Part shown: positions 2,884-29,972 of the stretch, in pieces
Position numbering within the stretch: position 1 is the stretch's first letter
How the letters are laid out: every line of letters begins with the position of its first letter
Program-made: the position numbers and the translations under genes
Notes under the pieces: model-generated
The model's database searches: none
Told to the model about the DNA's origin: nothing
What the model saw: only the letters and a program-made list of their open reading frames with translations
From: a marine bacterium B5-7
GTDB taxonomy: Bacteria > Pseudomonadota > Gammaproteobacteria > Arenicellales > CAJQKF01
Direction: 5' to 3'
Assembly: GCA_021604525.1 (NCBI GenBank)
Contig: BQJD01000034.1
Span: 1-39,617 of the forward strand
DNA: 39,617 nt

Positions 2884-3990
2884 ATGTCGTCCATATCCCT
2901 GAATGCTGTTGAAAAGTACTACGACTCAACAGCCGCTTTACAAAAAACCGATCTTTCGATTGAGGCTGGAACATTTACCGTTCTGCTCGGCCCATCGGGC
3001 TGTGGCAAGTCGACAACGCTCAGGTTGATAGCCGGTCTCGAATCACCGACCTCCGGTACTGTTGAGATAGGCGGGCGGGACGTTACCAACTTGCCGCCCG
3101 CAGAGCGTGGCCTGTCGATGGTGTTTCAATCCTATGCGCTTTTCCCGCATCTGTCTGTTGCAGAAAACATTCAATTCGGTTTGAAGGTTCGTCGTGTCCC
3201 GGCAGCGGAACGCAGGCAGCGACTTGAAAAGACCTGCGCATTATTGAGTCTGAGCGAGCTGGTCGATCGAAAACCCTATCAACTGTCCGGTGGTCAACAA
3301 CAGCGCGTTGCGCTCGGGCGGGCAGTCATCTCGGAGCAGAAAATCTGTTTGATGGACGAACCGTTGTCCAATCTGGACGCCAAGCTTCGGCACGATATGC
3401 GTAGGGAGTTATGTGCGCTGCAACGCAAACTGGACCTGACGGTGGTTTACGTGACGCACGATCAGACAGAGGCCATCACCATGGCCGATCAAGTCATACT
3501 TTTGAACTCAGGTTCCATAGAACAACATTGTGGGCCGCGTGAGTTATATGAGAAACCCCGTACTCTCTTTGCGGCACGTTTCATCGGCCAACCAGCGATG
3601 AATATCGTTAATCTCGTTCGATTCGAAAACGAGCAGTACACAACACCGGGCAGCGATAGCCCTTTTATTCGCTTGGTTGGAAACGATTTGCCGGATGTGA
3701 TTTCTCTTGGCATTCGCCCGGAGGATATTTCTGTATCGGATCATGATGGTATTTCTGTAATAGTTTCCGGTGGAGAATACCTTGGTGCCGACTTGATGCT
3801 TAATTGTATGCTTGGCGGTTCACCGGTAATCATACGTTGTCCGCCGGAACGGCTTGATGATTTTGGTTCAACGGGTCTGGATGATGTACATCAGAAGGTC
3901 AGCTTGAATTGGCTGCCGCGAAAGATTCATTTGTTCGATGATAAAAGCGGGAAACGCCGAGACGATCTTGCCGCTCAGTTAATAACCTGA
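2884..3990 (+). CDS. ABC transporter ATP-binding protein, CUT1 type (MalK/UgpC-like)
   Basis: A 368-residue ATPase energises import by the two permeases and binding protein downstream. Walker A is GPSGCGKST (residues 36-44), the signature is LSGGQQQR (134-141), Walker B is ICLMDEP (154-160), and the H-loop is VTHD. The C-terminal third is an MOP/TOBE-like extension (SLGIRPEDI), as in MalK/UgpC proteins. An in-frame GTG lies at 2845. I prefer ATG 2884 because the family sequence starts at SISLNAVEKYYDS, although the best purine-rich site (GGAGG, 2846-2850) is too far upstream for it. It is the first gene of an apparent ATPase, binding protein, permease, permease, DDAH, VOC series. Confidence 0.93.
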   Translation: MSSISLNAVEKYYDSTAALQKTDLSIEAGTFTVLLGPSGCGKSTTLRLIAGLESPTSGTVEIGGRDVTNLPPAERGLSMVFQSYALFPHLSVAENIQFGLKVRRVPAAERRQRLEKTCALLSLSELVDRKPYQLSGGQQQRVALGRAVISEQKICLMDEPLSNLDAKLRHDMRRELCALQRKLDLTVVYVTHDQTEAITMADQVILLNSGSIEQHCGPRELYEKPRTLFAARFIGQPAMNIVNLVRFENEQYTTPGSDSPFIRLVGNDLPDVISLGIRPEDISVSDHDGISVIVSGGEYLGADLMLNCMLGGSPVIIRCPPERLDDFGSTGLDDVHQKVSLNWLPRKIHLFDDKSGKRRDDLAAQLIT

Positions 3991-4009
3991 TAACAACTGG
4001 ACGACAGGG

Positions 4010-4026
4010 GCAGGTTCAAGTCCTGC
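4010..4026 (+). other. Stem-loop resembling a tRNA T arm
   Basis: The 17 bases GCAGG-TTCAAGT-CCTGC form a 5-bp stem with a 7-base loop identical in form to a tRNA T arm. They match the T arm of the tRNA-Lys at 1137-1212 at 15 of 17 positions. No acceptor, D or anticodon arm can be folded around it, so it is not a tRNA gene. It lies in the 80-base gap between the ATPase and binding-protein genes. It may be a chance hairpin, an mRNA-processing stem or a relic of a tRNA-targeted insertion. Confidence 0.3.
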
Positions 4027-4070
4027 ATGTTGCGAATAATTGATACCAACACATAGCGAGGTGAATATTG

Positions 4071-5360
4071 ATGAAACAAACACGCCAAAGAATGGCTGCC
4101 TTAATCGGCGCCGTGACTTTAACCCTGTCCGTAGCCATGCCTGCACAGGCGGTCGACCTGCAATTCTTTTTCCCTGTAGCAGTCGGCGGTAAGGCTGCTG
4201 AAACCATTGAATCGCTGACCAGGGAATATGTGTCCAGCAACAGTGATGTAAATATTGAGGCTGTTTATGCCGGCAGTTATCAGGATACCGTAACCAAGGC
4301 ATTAACCGCAGCGCAAGGTGGCAAACCGCCGCAACTCGCGGTAATTCTGGCCGTTGATATGTTTACGCTGATCGATGAAGACCTTATTGTGCCGTTTGAC
4401 GACTTGCTGTCAGACGCCGACAAGAAAGATTGGATCGGTGGTTTTTATCCTGCCTTCATGGAAAACAGCCAGACTGGCGGTAAAACCTACGGTATTCCAT
4501 TTCAACGTTCCACGCCGGTACTTTACTGGAACAAGGATGCATTTGCCGAAGTTGGGCTCGATCCGGATACGCCGCCAGCGACGTGGGATGAAATGGTCTC
4601 TTTCGGTGAGAAGCTCGTAAAGAAAGATGGCGATGGTAATGTTGTTCGCTGGGGCGTGCGCATACCGTCATCGGGATTTCCTTATTGGTTGTTTCAGGGT
4701 TTGACGACGCAAAATGGCGTCATCTTGATGAACTCTGATGGCAACGAGACCTATTTTGACGATCCAAAAGTTGTCGAAGCGCTGCAATATATGGTGGATC
4801 TCAGTCAGAAGTACGGTGTCATGGCGCCGGGAATTATCGAGTGGGGCACAACGCCAAAAGCATTTTTCGAAGGTGCAACGGCAATGATGTGGACCACGAC
4901 GGGGAACCTGACCAATGTTCGTACTAACGCGCCATTCCCATTCGGTGTTGCCATGCTTCCAGCCAAGGAACGACGTGGCGCTCCGACAGGCGGCGGAAAT
5001 TTCTACATTTTCAAGGATTCGAGTGATGAGCAGAAGAAAGCGTCGGTCGATTTCGTGAAGTGGATCACCGCGCCGGAGCAAGCAGCCCAATGGACGATTG
5101 CAACGGGTTACGTGGCGCCGCGACCGGATGATTGGGAAACACCGGCACTCAAGGCGTATGTCGAAGACTTTCCGCCCGCACTGGTTGCACGGAACCAGTT
5201 GGAATTTGCGGTTGCCGAACTGTCGACATATCAGAATCAGCGTATAACCACAATATTCAATGATGCGCTTGAAGCTTCTATCACTGGAGAAAAAGCGCCG
5301 CAGGCAGCACTTGCAGAGGCACAGGAAAAAGCAGATCGCATATTAAAAGATTATCGCTAG
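4071..5360 (+). CDS. ABC transporter substrate-binding protein, CUT1 type (UgpB-like)
   Basis: A 429-residue periplasmic binding protein. The signal peptide is clear: positive MKQTRQR, a hydrophobic core and a cleavage site after MPAQA (residues 23-27). The start VDLQFFFPV followed by VNIEAVYAGSYQDTVTKAL resembles UgpB, the glycerol-3-phosphate binder, and the length is normal for cluster-B sugar-binding proteins. GAGGTG at 4058-4063 with a 7-base spacer supports ATG 4071 over a TTG at 4068. The ligand is not certain: UgpB-like proteins also bind glycerophosphodiesters and other polar compounds. The association with DDAH raises the possibility of a non-sugar ligand. The gene is followed at once by a strong hairpin terminator, which should make it the most expressed gene of the transporter. 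Confidence 0.92.
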   Translation: MKQTRQRMAALIGAVTLTLSVAMPAQAVDLQFFFPVAVGGKAAETIESLTREYVSSNSDVNIEAVYAGSYQDTVTKALTAAQGGKPPQLAVILAVDMFTLIDEDLIVPFDDLLSDADKKDWIGGFYPAFMENSQTGGKTYGIPFQRSTPVLYWNKDAFAEVGLDPDTPPATWDEMVSFGEKLVKKDGDGNVVRWGVRIPSSGFPYWLFQGLTTQNGVILMNSDGNETYFDDPKVVEALQYMVDLSQKYGVMAPGIIEWGTTPKAFFEGATAMMWTTTGNLTNVRTNAPFPFGVAMLPAKERRGAPTGGGNFYIFKDSSDEQKKASVDFVKWITAPEQAAQWTIATGYVAPRPDDWETPALKAYVEDFPPALVARNQLEFAVAELSTYQNQRITTIFNDALEASITGEKAPQAALAEAQEKADRILKDYR

Positions 5361-5367
5361 TGAAACA

Positions 5368-5400
5368 GGCGACGGGGACTTATTCCCGTCGCCATTTTTT
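5368..5400 (+). terminator. Strong intrinsic terminator/attenuator inside the transporter operon
   Basis: GGCGACGGG (5368-5376) pairs perfectly with CCCGTCGCC (5385-5393) around an 8-base loop and is followed by A and six T residues (5395-5400). It lies between the binding-protein stop codon and the first permease start at 5409. Partial read-through would give excess binding protein over membrane components, a pattern known for other binding-protein-dependent transporters. Confidence 0.88.
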
Positions 5401-5408
5401 AACTGACC

Positions 5409-6296
5409 ATGCGTAACACCATAAATCTCAGGTTATCGTGGGTAAATGCGTGGCTATTGCTCACGCCGGCGATGATTCTTGTCATCGGGTTTACCCACTT
5501 CCCCGCGGTTAAAACCTTCTGGAATAGTTTCTTCTCAACACCTCGCGGTAAACGGCCTGCAGTATTTACGGGCCTTGAGAACTATCATTACCTGCTGCAA
5601 GACGATATTTTCTGGACAGTACTCAAGAACAACTTGCTGTTTTCACTTGGAACGGTGCCCACATCGGTTTGTATTGCCCTTGCGATGGCTCTATGGGTGA
5701 ATGGCAAGCTTCACGGCCGGGGATTTATGCGAATGGCGTTCTTTACGCCGACTGTGTTACCCCTCATCGCCGTTGCCAATATATGGTTGTTCTACTACAC
5801 GCCAGGCTTTGGACTAATCGATCAGATTCGATCCCTGTTCGGTCTGCCGGAACAAAACTGGCTGGGTAATCCAGACTATGCCCTGGCCGCTGTAATTGTG
5901 GTCGCGATATGGAAGGAGGCTGGATTTTTTATGGTTTTTTATCTTGCCGCTCTACAGTCGATTCCTCCGAATCTGCGTGAAGCGGCGCAGTTGGAAGGTG
6001 CCAGTAGTTGGTATTTCTTTAGACGTGTTGCGTTTCCCCTGTTAATGCCGACCACGTTGTTTGTGTCAGTCAATGCGGTAATAAATTCGTTTCGGCTAGT
6101 CGATCACATCTTCGTCATGACTGAGGGTGGCCCTAATAATGCCTCGTCACTATTGCTGTTTTATATATATGAGACTGCATTCAAATTTTGGGAAACCGGA
6201 TATGCTGCAACGTTGACTGTGGTTCTTGTGGTACTGCTCTCGATTTTTAGCGTCGGGCAGTTTTTCCTTGTTGATAAGCGGATTCACTACCGGTAA
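5409..6296 (+). CDS. ABC transporter permease, CUT1 type (UgpA/MalF-like)
   Basis: A 295-residue inner-membrane protein with about six hydrophobic helices. The EAA-loop region that contacts the ATPase is visible as NLREAAQLEGASSWYFFRRVAFPLLMP (about residues 190-216). The N-terminal LSWVNAWLLLTPAMILVIGF and the following FFSTPRG and FTGLENYHYLL segments are typical of the first CUT1 permease. Its ATG begins 8 bases after the T-tract of the terminator, so translation depends on read-through or on a promoter hidden near the hairpin. Its partner permease starts 4 bases after its stop codon. Confidence 0.92.
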   Translation: MRNTINLRLSWVNAWLLLTPAMILVIGFTHFPAVKTFWNSFFSTPRGKRPAVFTGLENYHYLLQDDIFWTVLKNNLLFSLGTVPTSVCIALAMALWVNGKLHGRGFMRMAFFTPTVLPLIAVANIWLFYYTPGFGLIDQIRSLFGLPEQNWLGNPDYALAAVIVVAIWKEAGFFMVFYLAALQSIPPNLREAAQLEGASSWYFFRRVAFPLLMPTTLFVSVNAVINSFRLVDHIFVMTEGGPNNASSLLLFYIYETAFKFWETGYAATLTVVLVVLLSIFSVGQFFLVDKRIHYR

Positions 6297-6300
6297 TACC

Positions 6301-7116
6301 ATGCGCCAGGTTGACTACGGATCCAGTCTCAATCTAATCGCAGCCTGGCTCGTGGCATTGCTGTGGTTCTCGCCGTTGGCCTATGCATTGTGGACGGCAA
6401 TACATCCAGTCGCTTATGAAGTCCGCTTCGATCTTACTGCACCACTGACATTTGAAAATTTTATAGATGCTTGGGCGGCAGCACCGTTCGCAAGATATTT
6501 TTTAAATACGGTAATCCTTGTCACCATGATTCTGGTAGCACAGTTTGTCCTGTGCACACTTGCAGCCTATGCCTTTGCCAGATTTGAGTTCCGTGGTCGC
6601 GAAGTGATGTTCGCCCTGGTGCTGGTACAGCTTCTGGTCATGCCGGATATACTGATCGTCGAAAACTACAAGACCATGCGTGCCCTTGGTCTCGTAGATA
6701 CCATCGTCGCGATTGGTTTGCCTTATATGGCATCCGGTTTCGGGATATTTCTACTCCGGCAAACATTCAAGACAGTACCCAAGGAACTTGAAGACGCTGC
6801 GCGGGTGGAAGGTGCCGGTTTATTTCAGATTCTTTGGCGTGTTTATATACCGCTGGCCAAGCCCACCTATCTTGCCTATGGCCTGGTTTCGGTGAGCTAT
6901 CATTGGAATAACTTCCTGTGGCCATTGATCGTTACCAATTCTGTTGAGACCCGACCTGTTACCGTGGGCCTTAGCATCTTTGCCGCGGTAGATTCCGGCG
7001 TACAATGGTCAATCATGAATGCTGCGACACTCATGACATCGGGGCCACTATTAATTGCATTCCTGCTATTTCAACGTCAGTTTGTGCAAAGCTTCATGCG
7101 CGCCGGTATTCGTTAA
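6301..7116 (+). CDS. ABC transporter permease, CUT1 type (UgpE/MalG-like)
   Basis: A 271-residue inner-membrane permease, the second half of the translocation channel. It has about six membrane segments and an EAA loop (KELEDAARVEGAGLFQILWRVYIPLAKP). The C-terminus FQRQFVQSFMRAGIR is the usual end of the MalG/UgpE class (VQGLTAGAVK-like). An upstream extension in the same frame overlaps the first permease, but ATG 6301, four bases after that gene's stop, is the sensible start and implies translational coupling. Confidence 0.92.
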   Translation: MRQVDYGSSLNLIAAWLVALLWFSPLAYALWTAIHPVAYEVRFDLTAPLTFENFIDAWAAAPFARYFLNTVILVTMILVAQFVLCTLAAYAFARFEFRGREVMFALVLVQLLVMPDILIVENYKTMRALGLVDTIVAIGLPYMASGFGIFLLRQTFKTVPKELEDAARVEGAGLFQILWRVYIPLAKPTYLAYGLVSVSYHWNNFLWPLIVTNSVETRPVTVGLSIFAAVDSGVQWSIMNAATLMTSGPLLIAFLLFQRQFVQSFMRAGIR

Positions 7117-7168
7117 ATATCTATCCGGTCGTATTTTTTCCTCTTCAAAGAAACCCAGGCATCGTGAT

Positions 7169-7963
7169 ATGAAAATCGGTCGTTCCTTTCGATTTACTAA
7201 CGCACTCGTGCGATCGCCGGCAAGAAGTATTGCTGATGGATTGCGCGCACATGGCCAGCCGGACCCGGATCACAAAACGTTTATGTCGGAACACGACGCG
7301 TATGTTGACCAGTTAAGACAGTCAGGTCTTAACACCACGATTCTCCCTTCGCTTGAAGATTACCCGGATTCTGTTTTTATTGAGGACGCCGCACTGTGCT
7401 TCGATGGTGTCGCAGTCGTTTTGAGGCCAGGCGCTCCGAGTCGACGTGGCGAAGCGCCAGCGTTATTACAGCCACTTGGTGAGTTATTCAGTGAAACTCA
7501 TCAGTTGGGTGGTGAAGGTTTTGTTGATGGCGGCGATATTCTGTTGACCGATACCGACGCATTTATTGGACTTTCCGAACGCACTAATCGACAAGGTATC
7601 TCAGCGCTTGAGCTCATACTTGCACGGTACGATTATACGGTTCGTGTCGTTGAGACACCGCCAGGTGTTCTGCATTTTAAATCCGCCTGCGGTTTGTTGG
7701 ATAGTGAAACAATCTTTGCAACGAGGGAGCTTGCTGCAACGGGCTGCTTTCAAGACTATCGCGTTATCGTAGCGCCAGATGGGGAAGGGCCGGTGGCAAA
7801 TCTTGTGCGTGTTAATGATGACGTGATCATGCGTTCAGGTTTTCCGAAATCCGAATTGTTGCTGAAAGATGAAGGGTATTCAGTGAAAGTGTTGTGTGTT
7901 GGAGAAGCGGCGAAAGTGGATGGTGGGTTATCCTGCATGTCGCTTCGCTTTACGCTCGACTAG
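7169..7963 (+). CDS. Dimethylarginine dimethylaminohydrolase (DDAH)
   Basis: A 264-residue enzyme of the arginine-deiminase superfamily. Known DDAH enzymes hydrolyse N-omega-methylated arginines to citrulline and methylamine or dimethylamine through a covalent cysteine intermediate. The catalytic set is visible: Asp120 in VDGGDILL, His169 in GVLHFKSAC and Cys256 in KVDGGLSCMSLRF. The segment FIGLSERTNRQG after VDGGD follows the vertebrate DDAH pattern closely, and FIEDAAL (70-76) is a substrate-pocket motif. The length fits bacterial DDAH (about 254 residues in Pseudomonas). I chose ATG 7169; the longer frame to 7055 overlaps the permease and adds no family sequence. It follows the transporter genes by 52 bases on the same strand, so the imported ligand may be linked to its substrate, which is inference. 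Confidence 0.9.
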   Translation: MKIGRSFRFTNALVRSPARSIADGLRAHGQPDPDHKTFMSEHDAYVDQLRQSGLNTTILPSLEDYPDSVFIEDAALCFDGVAVVLRPGAPSRRGEAPALLQPLGELFSETHQLGGEGFVDGGDILLTDTDAFIGLSERTNRQGISALELILARYDYTVRVVETPPGVLHFKSACGLLDSETIFATRELAATGCFQDYRVIVAPDGEGPVANLVRVNDDVIMRSGFPKSELLLKDEGYSVKVLCVGEAAKVDGGLSCMSLRFTLD

Positions 7964-7972
7964 CCAGTTTCC

Positions 7973-7996
7973 ATCAATGTGCATTGATATTTTTTT
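7973..7996 (+). terminator. Candidate weak terminator between DDAH and VOC genes
   Basis: ATCAAT pairs with ATTGAT around GTGC and is followed by A and seven T residues (7990-7996). The stem is short and AT-rich, so it is likely leaky. It lies in the 50-base gap after the DDAH stop codon. Confidence 0.45.
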
Positions 7997-8013
7997 ACGT
8001 ACAGGAAATCCTG

Positions 8014-8418
8014 ATGACGGCATCGACAGCAGCTTTTAGTCATATCACGCTGGGCACGAATGATCCCGCGAGAGCAACCCGGTTTTACGATGCCGTATTG
8101 AAGCCGCTGGGGTTTTCGCGCATGCCAAAACCGGCTGACAAACCGCCTTGTTACGCCAAGAATGCTGAGATACCATTTCTGTATCTCTATAAGCCGTATG
8201 ATGGTCGTCCGGCAACTTGGGGTAATGGAACCCATATCGCATTTCTGGCAGAAACGCGCGACGAGGTTGATAATTTTTATGTAGCTGCACTCGACAGAGG
8301 CGGTATCGATGAGGGGCCGCCAGGTCTACGTGCCGATTATGGTCCAGACTACTATGCCGCTTATGTGCGGGATCCGGATGGAAACAAGCTGCAGGCAGTA
8401 TGTTACGCAGAGGAATAA
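8014..8418 (+). CDS. VOC-superfamily (glyoxalase-like) protein
   Basis: A 134-residue single-module VOC protein. Strand 1 carries the metal-site His (FSHITLGTNDPARATRFYDAVLKPLGF). Further on are HIAFLAETRDEVDNFYVAAL and the closing YYAAYVRDPDGNKLQAVCY. The form is typical of small glyoxalase-like proteins of unknown substrate. AGGA at 8002-8005 supports ATG 8014. The gene is last in the transporter/DDAH series and may be co-transcribed through a leaky hairpin. It is convergent with the phosphate-transport genes. A glyoxalase I role is possible but not shown. Confidence 0.82.
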   Translation: MTASTAAFSHITLGTNDPARATRFYDAVLKPLGFSRMPKPADKPPCYAKNAEIPFLYLYKPYDGRPATWGNGTHIAFLAETRDEVDNFYVAALDRGGIDEGPPGLRADYGPDYYAAYVRDPDGNKLQAVCYAEE

Positions 8419-8452: not shown

Positions 8453-8749
8453 CTAGCCGGATTTTATTTTCGATCGATTAGCCTTCAGTTCCTTTAGAAC
8501 ACCAATCCCCTTCTTTCTTTGCGCTTCCAGGATTTTGAGCTGTTGCTCAATTCTCTCTCGCTCATCTTTTTTGGCAGACTCCAGTTCATCGAGAAGATGA
8601 TTGCGCTTTTTTTTCATTTTCTTAAGCACCTTCTTCAGTTCATCGTACTCTTGCGACTGTTGTCTCAAGTCGGCATCGAGCAATTCGGATAGTGTGCTTA
8701 GGAGTGCCTTTAATTTCATGTTGAAGTCGCTATGGTGTTTTAATCTCAT
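8453..8749 (-). CDS. Small coiled-coil protein of unknown function
   Basis: A 98-residue, highly charged, Lys/Glu/Leu-rich protein. From about residue 12 to 92 it shows heptad-like spacing of leucines with runs such as KKVLKKMKKKRNHLLDELESA, so a long coiled coil is expected. No signal peptide or membrane segment is seen. The start ATG (8749-8747) lies inside the last codons of the Na/Pi cotransporter gene, giving a 20-base overlap in a different frame and suggesting translational coupling. A second ATG at 8719 (MKLKALL) is an alternative start after the overlap. The context suggests a soluble partner or regulator of phosphate transport, but no function is known to me. Confidence 0.65.
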   Translation of the reverse strand: MRLKHHSDFNMKLKALLSTLSELLDADLRQQSQEYDELKKVLKKMKKKRNHLLDELESAKKDERERIEQQLKILEAQRKKGIGVLKELKANRSKIKSG

Positions 8750-10577
8750 TTTCAGGATGCGTAACAGTTTCCGCTCCTGTGAGATTCTCGCGATTAATTA
8801 GTTCAGCGATTTCTTCTTCGCCGAGAGAAAGCCCGACCTCTACCTGATGAGCGTCACTTTTACGTCGTACAAATAAAGTTTCTGCGGCTGTCAAAAGATC
8901 GTTACATGCGTCGTGAGCATAGACATAATCATTCATCAGAGAAACGGCAATATCAGGCGTGATCCTATGGCTGCGTATAAGTTCATCGAGCGTTCCGTCT
9001 GCGACAATGTCATTGCGAGCCAATTCGATCCTAGCTTCGTCATATGTCAATATTGTGACATCTTCGGTTGTGGCGTTTTTCATGGTATTGATTGCACGCA
9101 ACGTATTGGCAATGAAAGTTCGAATCTTGTCGTACTGATCACGTACTGCTGGATTGCGCGATACCATGTGTACCAGCAGATTCTTTTGCAGGTGTTTTAT
9201 TGCTTTAAGTGCTTCGACAATCTTTGCACCGGCGGATCGATAGAGGCGAAGGGCTTCCATTTGCTGGGGGTTTCGGGGAGAGCCAATTTGGCTAATGAAC
9301 TCAACGATTGCACCGTAAAGTGATTTGACATTGAGCGTGTATTTCTCATTGATATCTTCGCGGATAACTTTGCGTGCCTGTGCAACGACCTCTGGGATAC
9401 TGCGATCGGAATAGAGTTCAGAGCGAGGTAAACAGAGGGACTGTGTAATGATTCGTTCAGCGGTTTCGTAAAGTCGAATCGTTTCGTTGCGTACGGCTTC
9501 AACCGATGTGTCTGCAAATTGCTTTACCGATTCATTGAGATATTTGGGTCTTTTAACTCCGGGTGCAGGAGCGTGGAAACGTTTCACCAGAAAAGCTTCC
9601 AGCGTGTTGACCAGTGGAAGCATCAGGATCAGACCGGTGATATTAAACAGACTGTGAAATAGGGCGAGGCGGGTGGTATCGTTTTCAAGGCCTATCAGTG
9701 TCGATATCCAATCTACGGCTTTCATAAACTCGCCGATAAAAATAATGGCGACAAGGCCCGTCGTGATATTAAAAATAAAGTGAGCGGCTGCAAGTCGTTT
9801 GCCATCCTGATTGGAGCCGAGACTGCCGATAATTGCAGTGATTGTTGTACCAACATTGGAGCCTATGGATAATGCCAACGCGTTCTCATAGCTTAATTGT
9901 CCGGCGGCCAGTCCGGTGAGGATTAAAACGAGAACTGCGTGGCTTGACTGCATGACGACTGTCGCAGCCAATCCGATTCCGGTGTAGATGAGTAGGCCTT
10001 TGAAGCCGCCGATGCTAAAGCGCGAGAGATCGATGGATGACCGAAAGGCTTCGAATCCCTGTTTCATGAACTCGATGCCGAGGAAAAGGAACCCGATACC
10101 TAGCAGTACGTATCCCGCGCCCTTAGCCGCCTGACTTTTCTGGAATATAAGCAGCACTCCGACCACCAGCAGTGGCATAGCCCAGACAGCCAGGGAGACT
10201 TTTAGCCCGAAACCGGCCACAAGCCATGCGCCGGTGGTCGTGCCGAGATTGGCGCCGAATATGATGCCGATGCCGCCTGCCAGCGAAATCAGTCCGGATG
10301 ACAGGAATGATATCGTCAGAAGAGATATGAGCGAGCTTGATTGGACCAACGTCGTTGAGACAATGCCGAAAGTCAGGCTCTTCCACAATCGGTCGGTACT
10401 CTTTCGCAGAAGTGCATCGAGCGTTCCTCCGGCGAATGTGCGAAATCCGTCTTCGAGCGCCAGCATGCCGAACAGAAAGACCGCAACACCGGCACTAATC
10501 TGCTTGAAGTCGGGGCTTAAATAGAATCCGTACAATAAGATTAGAACGGTAAATGGAAGGATCAATCGACGGATCAT
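8730..10577 (-). CDS. Na/Pi cotransporter-family protein with PhoU-like C-terminal domain
   Basis: A 615-residue protein. Residues 1 to about 330 form the membrane part with two inverted Na_Pi_cotrans repeats, each carrying a QSS motif (TTLVQSSSLI near 80, VVMQSSHAV near 210) and a glycine-rich GANLGTTTGAW / GSNVGTTITAI segment. Residues from about 350 to 590 are a cytoplasmic helical domain of the PhoU type. This layout is that of bacterial NptA/YjbB-like proteins, which move phosphate with sodium; some mainly export it. It lies 62 bases downstream of the PiT gene on the same strand and overlaps the coiled-coil gene. The direction of transport cannot be read from sequence. Confidence 0.9.
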   Translation of the reverse strand: MIRRLILPFTVLILLYGFYLSPDFKQISAGVAVFLFGMLALEDGFRTFAGGTLDALLRKSTDRLWKSLTFGIVSTTLVQSSSLISLLTISFLSSGLISLAGGIGIIFGANLGTTTGAWLVAGFGLKVSLAVWAMPLLVVGVLLIFQKSQAAKGAGYVLLGIGFLFLGIEFMKQGFEAFRSSIDLSRFSIGGFKGLLIYTGIGLAATVVMQSSHAVLVLILTGLAAGQLSYENALALSIGSNVGTTITAIIGSLGSNQDGKRLAAAHFIFNITTGLVAIIFIGEFMKAVDWISTLIGLENDTTRLALFHSLFNITGLILMLPLVNTLEAFLVKRFHAPAPGVKRPKYLNESVKQFADTSVEAVRNETIRLYETAERIITQSLCLPRSELYSDRSIPEVVAQARKVIREDINEKYTLNVKSLYGAIVEFISQIGSPRNPQQMEALRLYRSAGAKIVEALKAIKHLQKNLLVHMVSRNPAVRDQYDKIRTFIANTLRAINTMKNATTEDVTILTYDEARIELARNDIVADGTLDELIRSHRITPDIAVSLMNDYVYAHDACNDLLTAAETLFVRRKSDAHQVEVGLSLGEEEIAELINRENLTGAETVTHPENEIKTP

Positions 10578-10639: not shown

Positions 10640-12205
10640 TTAGGGAAGCAACATACCGCGAATCGTATAGTACAGTATTGCTGCCAGCAATCCGGACGCA
10701 GGTACAGTAATGATCCAGGCCGCGGCAATTTTCAATAAGGCAGAGCGCTTGACCAGTTCCTGACGATATACCCTGCGAAGACTTTTTCGTTCTTCTTTGG
10801 ATATTAGAACTATCCCTTTGGATTTGAGTATACGCAACATGTCGCCTTTCTCATGGAAGGATGCATTGTTGAATCGTTCAAGATACTCCTCGACAACCTG
10901 TCGATCAGCTCCAACATGATGTAGCTCGATTTCATCGATGATGGCTCGATAAGTAACTTTCAAATGTTCGCGTAAAAACCCGACTCCGAAAACGCCACCT
11001 ACTGCTATATGGGTCGAGCTGACTGGCAGGCCGAGCTGACTTGCAATAATGACAGTAATCGACGCGGCCATGGCAATGCAGTAGGCACGCATACGGTCGA
11101 GTTCGGTAATCTCCGAGCCAACTGTTCGTACCAGTTTCGGTCCGTACAGTGCCAGGCCAAGTACAATTCCTATGGCGCCAACCATCAACACCCAAAGAGG
11201 CACAGCTGCTTTTGTAGCCACTGCGCCATGCAAGATAGATTCGTTAATTGCGGCAAGCGGTCCCACTGCGTTGGCGACATCATTCGCGCCGTGAGCGAAA
11301 CTGAGTAACGCCGCCGCAAATATCAGTGGTATGGTGAATAATTCGTCGATGCTGGATTTTGTGTTCTCAATATTTCCCGCAGTGCTGCGAACCAGCCATC
11401 GAACCAGGTACCAGATAACCACACCGAAAAAGAAACCCCCGATAAAGGCGACTGGAAAACCAATCTTGACCATTTTTGACAGGCCTTTCATCACCAGGTA
11501 GGTTGCGAAGGCCCAGGCCATTAGCCCAACCAGGGTTGGAACATGGCGTTTAGCAGCTTCCACCATATCTTTCTGGTAGGTAATGCCGCGTTTTATTGCA
11601 TACAGGAACGCTGCTGCAATGAACCCACCCATGACTGGAGATATCACCCAGCTAGCCACAATTTTCGCAAATTGATCCCAGTTTGCGATTCCAATGCCGC
11701 CCGCCGCAATTCCTGCGCCCAAAACGCCGCCGACAATGGAGTGTGTCGTCGATACGGGTGCGCCGATGGCGGTGGCGGCATTCAGCCACAGTGCGCCCGC
11801 CAGCAGCGCGGCCATCATGATCCAGATAAAGGTATCGGCGTCCTGAATCATGGCCGGGTCAATAATGCCTTTTTTTATTGTACTGACGACATCGCCGCCG
11901 GCTATCAACGCACCACCTGCCTCGAATATGGCAGCTATCATAATAGCGCCAGTCATTGTCAAAGCTCTCGATCCGACTGCCGGACCGACATTGTTGGCTA
12001 CATCATTGGCGCCGATGTTGAGCGCCATGTAGCCGCCAATCATCGCTGCGACTACCAGCAACACGAGGTTCGGTGAGTGCCCTGCAATCGAGCGTGAGTA
12101 CAGCATGATGATGACGATAAAAAGCAATGCCGTGCCGATCCTGAAAAGCTCACCGCGACCGAATCGGGTGGCTTTTTCTATCGACTGAATATTTTCTAGA
12201 TCCAT
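10640..12205 (-). CDS. PiT-family inorganic phosphate transporter
   Basis: A 521-residue inner-membrane protein with the duplicated PiT signature: ALNIGANDVANNVGPAVGSR at about 62-80 and AHGANDVANAVGPLAA near residue 300. Multiple hydrophobic helices flank a cytoplasmic loop. The family imports phosphate (often as a metal-phosphate complex) with protons or sodium, at low affinity and usually constitutively. The length is close to that of E. coli PitA (about 500). A C-terminal charged stretch (HHVGADRQVVEEYLERF) precedes the last two helices. ATG 12205 is preceded by GAGG. It is the first gene of the phosphate group, transcribed before the Na/Pi gene. Confidence 0.93.
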   Translation of the reverse strand: MDLENIQSIEKATRFGRGELFRIGTALLFIVIIMLYSRSIAGHSPNLVLLVVAAMIGGYMALNIGANDVANNVGPAVGSRALTMTGAIMIAAIFEAGGALIAGGDVVSTIKKGIIDPAMIQDADTFIWIMMAALLAGALWLNAATAIGAPVSTTHSIVGGVLGAGIAAGGIGIANWDQFAKIVASWVISPVMGGFIAAAFLYAIKRGITYQKDMVEAAKRHVPTLVGLMAWAFATYLVMKGLSKMVKIGFPVAFIGGFFFGVVIWYLVRWLVRSTAGNIENTKSSIDELFTIPLIFAAALLSFAHGANDVANAVGPLAAINESILHGAVATKAAVPLWVLMVGAIGIVLGLALYGPKLVRTVGSEITELDRMRAYCIAMAASITVIIASQLGLPVSSTHIAVGGVFGVGFLREHLKVTYRAIIDEIELHHVGADRQVVEEYLERFNNASFHEKGDMLRILKSKGIVLISKEERKSLRRVYRQELVKRSALLKIAAAWIITVPASGLLAAILYYTIRGMLLP

Positions 12206-29183: not shown

Positions 29184-29972
29184 ATGTCAAAGTTAACGAT
29201 TCGGGATCTGCTCAATCGTAAGGGTAAACGGCAATTCAGTTATGTCCGGGTGGATTCAGTAGCGCAGGCATCGGCTGCGCAGATGGCCGGCATCGATATG
29301 ATAGGGACAGCCTTTGAAGAATCGACACGAGGATTTCCCGGTTCTGCACCGGATACGCATTTTCGATTCGGACTCAAGTACGGTCAATATGCCAACGGCA
29401 CCGAGATTCTTCGCGCAGCATTTTCAGCCATGGAAAACGGTGCGGATTCGGTCTATACCGCTCAAAGTATGGAAATGGTTTCGATACTTGCAAGAGAAGG
29501 CATCCCGGTCTTCGGGCACATTGGTCTTGTCCCGCCAAAAATGGGGTGGACCGGTGGATATTGTGCCGTTGGTAAAACCTCGAAGGAAGCCGTTAAGTTA
29601 TTTCATGAGGTGAAAGATTATGAAAGCGCTGGTGCGGTCGGTATTGAAATTGAAGTTGTTCCATACCTGGTGGCTACTGAAATATCCCGAAGAACACCGC
29701 TTTTGACGATGTCGCTGGGATCAGGGTCCGGGTGCGATATGCAGTATCTTTTTGCGTCGGATATTCTTGGGGAAACGGTGGGCCGGATTCCACGTCATGC
29801 CAGGATTTATCGAAACTTCAATGAGGAATATGCACGACTCGAGCGTGAGCGGATCAATGCGTTTCGCGAGTTCGTCGATGATATCGACAGTGGTGCTTTT
29901 CCCCTGCCAAAACACCTGGTCGAGATTTCAGCCTCGGAGTTTGATTCATTCATCAATGAGATTGATGAATGA
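29184..29972 (+). CDS. PanB-like protein (ketopantoate hydroxymethyltransferase family) with altered metal site
   Basis: A 262-residue protein of the PanB family, close to the usual length of about 264. Family hallmarks are IPVFGHIGLVPPKMGWTGGY (107-126), IEVVP with the conserved Glu157, SLGSGSGCDMQYLFASDILG (177-196) and the C-terminal helix ending in SGAFPLPKHLVEIS. True PanB binds magnesium through Asp45, Asp84 and Glu114 (E. coli numbering). Here the VGDSLG motif is replaced by IGTAFEES, the Asp84 position is Gly63, and the Glu114 region reads SVYTAQS. Standard 5,10-methylene-THF-dependent ketopantoate synthesis is therefore unlikely. The protein could be another aldolase or lyase of the fold. 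It shares promoter architecture with the desaturase gene 2 kb downstream. Confidence 0.85.
   Translation: MSKLTIRDLLNRKGKRQFSYVRVDSVAQASAAQMAGIDMIGTAFEESTRGFPGSAPDTHFRFGLKYGQYANGTEILRAAFSAMENGADSVYTAQSMEMVSILAREGIPVFGHIGLVPPKMGWTGGYCAVGKTSKEAVKLFHEVKDYESAGAVGIEIEVVPYLVATEISRRTPLLTMSLGSGSGCDMQYLFASDILGETVGRIPRHARIYRNFNEEYARLERERINAFREFVDDIDSGAFPLPKHLVEISASEFDSFINEIDE

Follow-up and report, generated by a model that had tools for sequence, protein, structure and literature searches.

The closest described relatives of the transport system reported here are the UgpBAEC importers of Escherichia coli (4aq4) and Phaeobacter MED193 (9lff/9lfj). According to the Phaeobacter study, Tyr64, Ser143, Ser266 and Tyr342 of UgpB contact the phosphate, the hydroxyls of the glycerol are contacted by Gly303, Arg393 and Glu88, and a clamp is formed by Trp188 and Trp191 (PMC12718374). 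The study also describes the Tyr and Ser contacts as common to glycerophosphocholine- and dinucleotide-binding relatives (PMC12718374).

The window, by which we mean the whole stretch of 39,617 nucleotides that was analysed, carries the genes of a UgpBAEC-like importer followed by a gene for a dimethylargininase (DDAH). For the DDAH of Pseudomonas aeruginosa, we take the catalytic pair to be Cys249 and His162, and we assumed Leu18, Asp60, Phe63, Glu65, Asp66, Arg85 and Arg132 as the positions for comparison. A literature search of limited scope, covering DDAH with ABC transporters or operons and Ugp with metallophosphoesterases, returned no report on an importer-DDAH pairing. The parts of the locus are ordinary and their neighbourhood is most likely accidental.

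Gene content of the locus

The arrangement claimed in the earlier note, in which genes for an ATPase, a UgpB-like protein, two permeases and a DDAH follow each other on one strand with short gaps, was confirmed by open reading frames, Pfam and NCBIfam. All six plus-strand open reading frames, including that of a VOC family protein behind the DDAH gene, were confirmed (Table 1), with successive intergenic gaps of 80, 48, 4, 52 and 50 bases from the ATPase gene to the VOC gene. The binding protein has a signal-peptide-like N terminus and an alternative start at position 4068. Downstream lie two genes of phosphate transporter families, on the strand opposite to the importer; the NCBIfam scores of the PHO4 family protein also resemble those of the CysP sulfate permease. 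Elsewhere in the window, positions 29184-29972 encode a PanB-like protein whose scores fall far short of the PanB cut-offs (105 bits against 272, and 94 against 208), which is possibly a relative with a different function.

Table 1. Features of the importer-DDAH locus and its neighbours, with positions in the window
Feature	Position	Strand	Evidence
ABC ATPase, UgpC/MalK type (ABC_tran + TOBE_2)	2884..3990	+	Pfam, NCBIfam
UgpB-like periplasmic binding protein (SBP_bac_8)	4071..5360	+	Pfam, NCBIfam, structure match, residue alignment
Hairpin then T-run, between binding-protein and first permease genes	5368..5393	+	Terminator scan, folding
Permease, UgpA type	5409..6296	+	Pfam (BPD_transp_1), NCBIfam
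Permease, UgpE type	6301..7116	+	Pfam (BPD_transp_1), NCBIfam
Dimethylargininase (DDAH), 264 aa	7169..7963	+	Pfam DDAH/ADI, NCBIfam, structure match, residues
VOC (glyoxalase/dioxygenase) family protein, 134 aa	8014..8418	+	Pfam Glyoxalase
Na/Pi cotransporter family protein, neighbour	8730..10577	-	NCBIfam and locus comparison
PHO4 (Pit-type) phosphate transporter family protein, neighbour	10640..12205	-	Locus comparison

Transcription of the importer, DDAH and VOC genes as one unit is possible, since all of them lie on the plus strand with short gaps. A promoter and terminator scan, whose total number of sites was about that expected by chance, found no terminator-like site between the last permease and DDAH genes, so that read-through may occur there, and none between the DDAH and VOC genes. 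The only strong terminator-like site among these genes is the hairpin behind the binding-protein gene (Table 1). Folding of the gap between the binding-protein gene and the permease genes gave a stable hairpin, of differing sequence, in every one of 14 cases, namely positions 5361-5408 of the window and the corresponding gaps of 13 related loci.

The binding protein and the DDAH enzyme

The top NCBIfam families of the four transport proteins were UgpC, UgpB, UgpA and UgpE, and every score lay below its cut-off (ATPase against PRK11650 UgpC, 381 of 432 bits; UgpB, 170 of 411; UgpA, 123 of 335; UgpE, 121 of 297). The best match of the binding protein among solved structures was E. coli UgpB (4aq4, 1.4e-38), and Pfam placed it in SBP_bac_8/SBP_bac_1 and not in SBP_bac_3, the polar amino acid type. 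In a profile alignment, the phosphate-contact positions given in the Phaeobacter study correspond to Y70, S147, T276 and Y347, with Thr replacing Ser at the third. This set (Tyr, Ser, Ser or Thr, Tyr) was present in all 21 sequences to which the described positions were mapped by alignment, namely that of the window and those from 20 of 42 related importer loci. The equivalents of Gly303 and Trp188 are also kept. The glycerol site described for UgpB is not retained: Glu88 is replaced by Ala and the clamp residue Trp191 by Arg, and the Arg393 column, which is possibly misaligned and has an invariant Arg two residues before it, holds Thr. Because Ala, Arg and Thr replace these residues, the ligand is probably not plain glycerol-3-phosphate, and we read the site as fitting a phosphate-bearing ligand that is other or larger than glycerol-3-phosphate. 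The same genome contains a second, more UgpB-like importer locus on another contig (L123), whose binding protein shares 24-26% identity with that of the window and carries the WWHAMGG stretch of Phaeobacter UgpB.

The enzyme gave a full-length match to solved bacterial DDAHs (3rhy, 1.4e-47). Its catalytic residues are Cys256, His169 and Asp120; the Cys and His are kept in all full-length relatives listed, and the third position holds Asp instead of Glu, as in many of the listed relatives, among which some genes were entered twice under two locus ids. The substrate positions are likewise conserved (D67, F70, E72, D73, R86 and R138), as is the Leu18-equivalent position. Dimethylargininase was the top NCBIfam family, with scores below the cut-offs of NF045658 (201 of 450 bits) and NF045660 (153 of 340 bits); these families are narrow, and the name DDAH therefore rests on the residues and the full-length likeness and not on an equivalog assignment. 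The enzyme is probably an ordinary dimethylargininase. The alternative raised in the earlier note, a DDAH-like enzyme with a new substrate, is not indicated, because all canonical active-site positions checked are kept, with Asp for Glu at one. A conserved VOC-DDAH gene pair was also considered and was rejected when no VOC relative matched near other DDAH genes.

Conservation of the pairing and context of related loci

Importer and DDAH genes were both present in 15 genomes, each counted once, and were adjacent only in the genome of the window. These comprise seven genomes of the order, five further ones in a class sample and three further ones among 38 importer-bearing genomes. In one of them (G878), both lie on a single contig, yet at least 470 kb apart. 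The order was represented by 109 genomes, with DDAH in 22 (E 1e-40 or better), the binding protein in 15 (1e-60 or better) and both in seven; the class sample held 369 genomes, with DDAH in 14 (E 1e-20), the binding protein in 10 (1e-60) and both in six, including that of the window. Among the 38 importer-bearing genomes, which were drawn from a phylum sample, the family of G735 and the class sample and of which four had already been counted in the class sample as lacking DDAH, DDAH was present in three. These samples are draws, and many of the genomes are fragmented, with some neighbours cut off.

The survey of individual loci gave the same picture from both sides. We fetched 42 related importer loci, five of which end before the DNA past the last permease, and no DDAH gene followed the last permease in any of the remaining 37. 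Conversely, neither the binding protein nor the permeases of the window matched near DDAH in 41 DDAH loci (E 1e-5); these came from one scan of a contig collection with DDAH as the sole query, and 38 of them had at least 1.5 kb of upstream DNA. For loci of high G+C content, genes were identified with tblastn instead of gene calling. The earlier note had proposed a functional importer-DDAH pairing and had named uniqueness to this genome as an outcome that would refute it; with adjacency in one of 15 genomes, the proposal is not supported.

At the level of whole genomes, the two functions do co-occur. In the class sample, DDAH was found in 6/10 importer genomes compared with 14/369 overall (Fisher p 2e-7), and in 5/9 when the genome of the window was left out (p 3e-6); in the order, the co-occurrence was weak (7/15 compared with 22/109, p 0.012). 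All three tests ignore phylogeny and genome size, and the co-occurrence counts weakly against an accidental neighbourhood.

The genes surrounding the importer in relatives are of a different kind. In 25 of the 42 loci, a GlpR-like DeoR regulator of the same orientation lies just upstream, and a phosphodiesterase-family gene (EEP or metallophosphoesterase) follows the last permease on the same strand in 15 of 37 (14 detected by tblastn and one added from annotation), with a further one on the opposite strand in L109. HAD phosphatase genes occur in 8/42 loci and GlpD genes in 5/42. Frequently, the GlpR-like gene is followed in turn by those of the ATPase, the binding protein and both permeases, and then by genes for an EEP-family protein, an HAD-IIB phosphatase and GlpD; DUF47 and genes for phosphate transporters sometimes come next (L113, L115, L118 and L121). 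Other loci have a metallophosphoesterase gene after the permeases, followed in L129 and L133 by a Na/Pi cotransporter gene. In the genome of the window, GlpD is found with a glycerol-type ABC system and a glycerol kinase on another contig (names assigned by eye from translations), and the EEP-family matches are likewise found on other contigs, with no linkage to the window. The importer's own genomic context thus points to glycerol-phosphate. The idea that the whole importer family takes up guanidino compounds was rejected, the recurrent neighbours being GlpR-like, phosphodiesterase, HAD and GlpD genes.

The closest clade consists of 12 importer loci with at least 75% identity. A GlpR-like gene is present in eight of the nine with visible upstream DNA, and a same-strand phosphodiesterase gene is absent from the clade's loci. 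The 75%-identical importer of Ruegeria TM1040 is convergent to a gene for 5-guanidino-2-oxopentanoate decarboxylase, which scored above its cut-off. An enzyme of this kind is also encoded on plasmids of Ruegeria pomeroyi and Sulfitobacter (L166 and L167), where DDAH shares an operon with the genes of the decarboxylase, an aminotransferase and a TetR regulator, divergent from an amino-acid importer. The kind of decarboxylase common to these loci provides an indirect bridge from the importer to arginine catabolism. Among the 12 closest-clade loci, it occurs in Ruegeria TM1040 only; in nine further clade loci (G735 and eight others), none had the decarboxylase at E 1e-8 and eight had the GlpR-like gene, and the single convergent neighbour was therefore not taken as linkage. 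On these same counts, we rejected the possibility that the closest clade (75-77%) differs from the other relatives. Directly before the Ruegeria TM1040 importer, genes for a GbcAB-like Rieske oxygenase and reductase were observed (L146:5214-7513), with scores below the glycine betaine monooxygenase cut-offs.

DDAH does have importer partners elsewhere. A polar-amino-acid ABC importer of the SBP_bac_3 type adjoins DDAH in 7 of the 41 loci, upstream in six (L003, L011, L012, L015, L016 and L017) and downstream in L027; the assignment was confirmed by Pfam in the five of these seven loci that were scanned. They derive from Rhodobacterales, actinobacteria and a metagenome-assembled genome of Methylobacteriaceae, and in L012 an agmatinase-family gene precedes the importer. 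Since DDAH recurs beside amino-acid-type importers, these are natural and better candidates for bacterial methylarginine uptake. An importer-then-DDAH layout is real in such loci, and can therefore mean something.

Interpretation and comparison with known systems

We consider it quite probable that the locus combines an importer of phosphorylated glycerol compounds or phosphodiesters with an ordinary DDAH, two independent functions that were made adjacent by rearrangement and do not form one pathway. The UgpBAEC-like importer would take up a small phosphorylated compound, most likely glycerol phosphate or a glycerophosphodiester, which the binding protein would pass on to the permease pair, with the ATPase powering uptake. 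By hydrolysis of methylated arginine, the DDAH would release citrulline and a methylamine. As for the history of the locus, we infer that a local rearrangement placed the DDAH and VOC genes behind the importer, at a position that in many relatives of the importer is taken by phosphodiesterase and GlpD genes; the two may be co-transcribed with the importer, yet would not belong to one pathway.

A shared strand, a 52-base gap and the lack of a detected terminator between the last permease and DDAH would also agree with an importer of CUT1 type that was recruited for methylarginine or a guanidino compound resembling it, with DDAH as the first catabolic step, as would the amino-acid-type importers directly preceding DDAH in other lineages, the decarboxylase gene adjoining the importer of Ruegeria TM1040 and the co-occurrence in the class sample. 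Such a recruitment is nevertheless very unlikely, given the pairing in one of 15 genomes and in none of the importer and DDAH loci surveyed elsewhere, the described phosphate contacts in every aligned sequence and the GlpR-like regulators of relatives; moreover, Ala at Glu88 and Arg at Trp191 of the described site would be expected to disfavour a cationic guanidinium ligand. We regard as unlikely a mixed scavenging operon, in which genes for different substrates are co-transcribed for a shared starvation response, with an organophosphate serving as phosphorus source and methylarginine as nitrogen source. The short gaps (52 and 50 bases) in which no terminator was detected, the two adjoining genes of phosphate transporter families and the genome co-occurrence of both functions are consistent with it, but the arrangement is not conserved, the phosphate genes lie on the opposite strand and no regulatory site was identified.

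Two further readings connect the importer's ligand with the enzyme itself. That the importer supplies DDAH with a novel substrate, for example a phosphorylated compound bearing a guanidino group, would suit a pocket that looks made for phosphate by the described contacts, but it is barely credible: all checked positions of the enzyme are canonical and common to unlinked relatives, and its acidic guanidine-binding residues would probably disfavour an anionic substituent. Phosphoarginine is an energy store of animals, and marine bacteria could meet it in invertebrate debris. Import of a compound of this kind, bearing phosphate and an arginine-type group, by the window's UgpB-like clade seems to us highly improbable. 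The described phosphate contacts that are kept and the adjoining phosphate transporter genes can be named for it; the Arg replacing the Trp described as clamping glycerol could hold a carboxylate, and DDAH, or the guanidino-acid decarboxylase of Ruegeria TM1040, would use the remainder. This reading is weakest in requiring DDAH to act on a compound of that kind.

Independent functions of importer and DDAH thus remain the preferred reading. Of the unusual ligand suggested in the earlier note, the glycerophospho part agrees with the described phosphate residues that are kept and with the GlpR, phosphodiesterase, phosphatase and GlpD neighbours in relatives, and the methylated guanidino part is not supported, with the pairing found in one of 15 genomes. 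The locus cautions that a tidy same-strand neighbourhood can mislead on the ligand of an importer. It also provides two leads, namely a UgpB-like clade that has the described phosphate site, lacks the described UgpB glycerol site and is often found beside phosphodiesterases, whose ligand is worth measuring, and the recurrence of DDAH beside amino-acid-type importers.

Compared with the DDAH-coupled polar-amino-acid importers, the locus likewise has an ABC importer directly beside DDAH, but its binding protein comes from another family than SBP_bac_3. Its enzyme resembles the P. aeruginosa DDAH (1h70, 3rhy and 3bpb) over its full length and keeps the Cys, the His and the guanidine-binding acids, and differs from it in having Asp for Glu as the third catalytic residue and by a score of 201 against an NCBIfam cut-off of 450. 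With UgpBAEC of E. coli and Phaeobacter MED193, the importer has in common the gene set and, judged by sequence, the fold family. Within the site as described in PMC12718374, it shares Tyr64, Ser143, Tyr342, Gly303 and Trp188, has Thr at Ser266, and differs at Glu88 (Ala), Trp191 (Arg) and the Arg393 column (Thr). It further differs from UgpBAEC in that its proteins fall under the UgpA, UgpB, UgpC and UgpE family cut-offs and in that no phosphodiesterase gene lies beside it.
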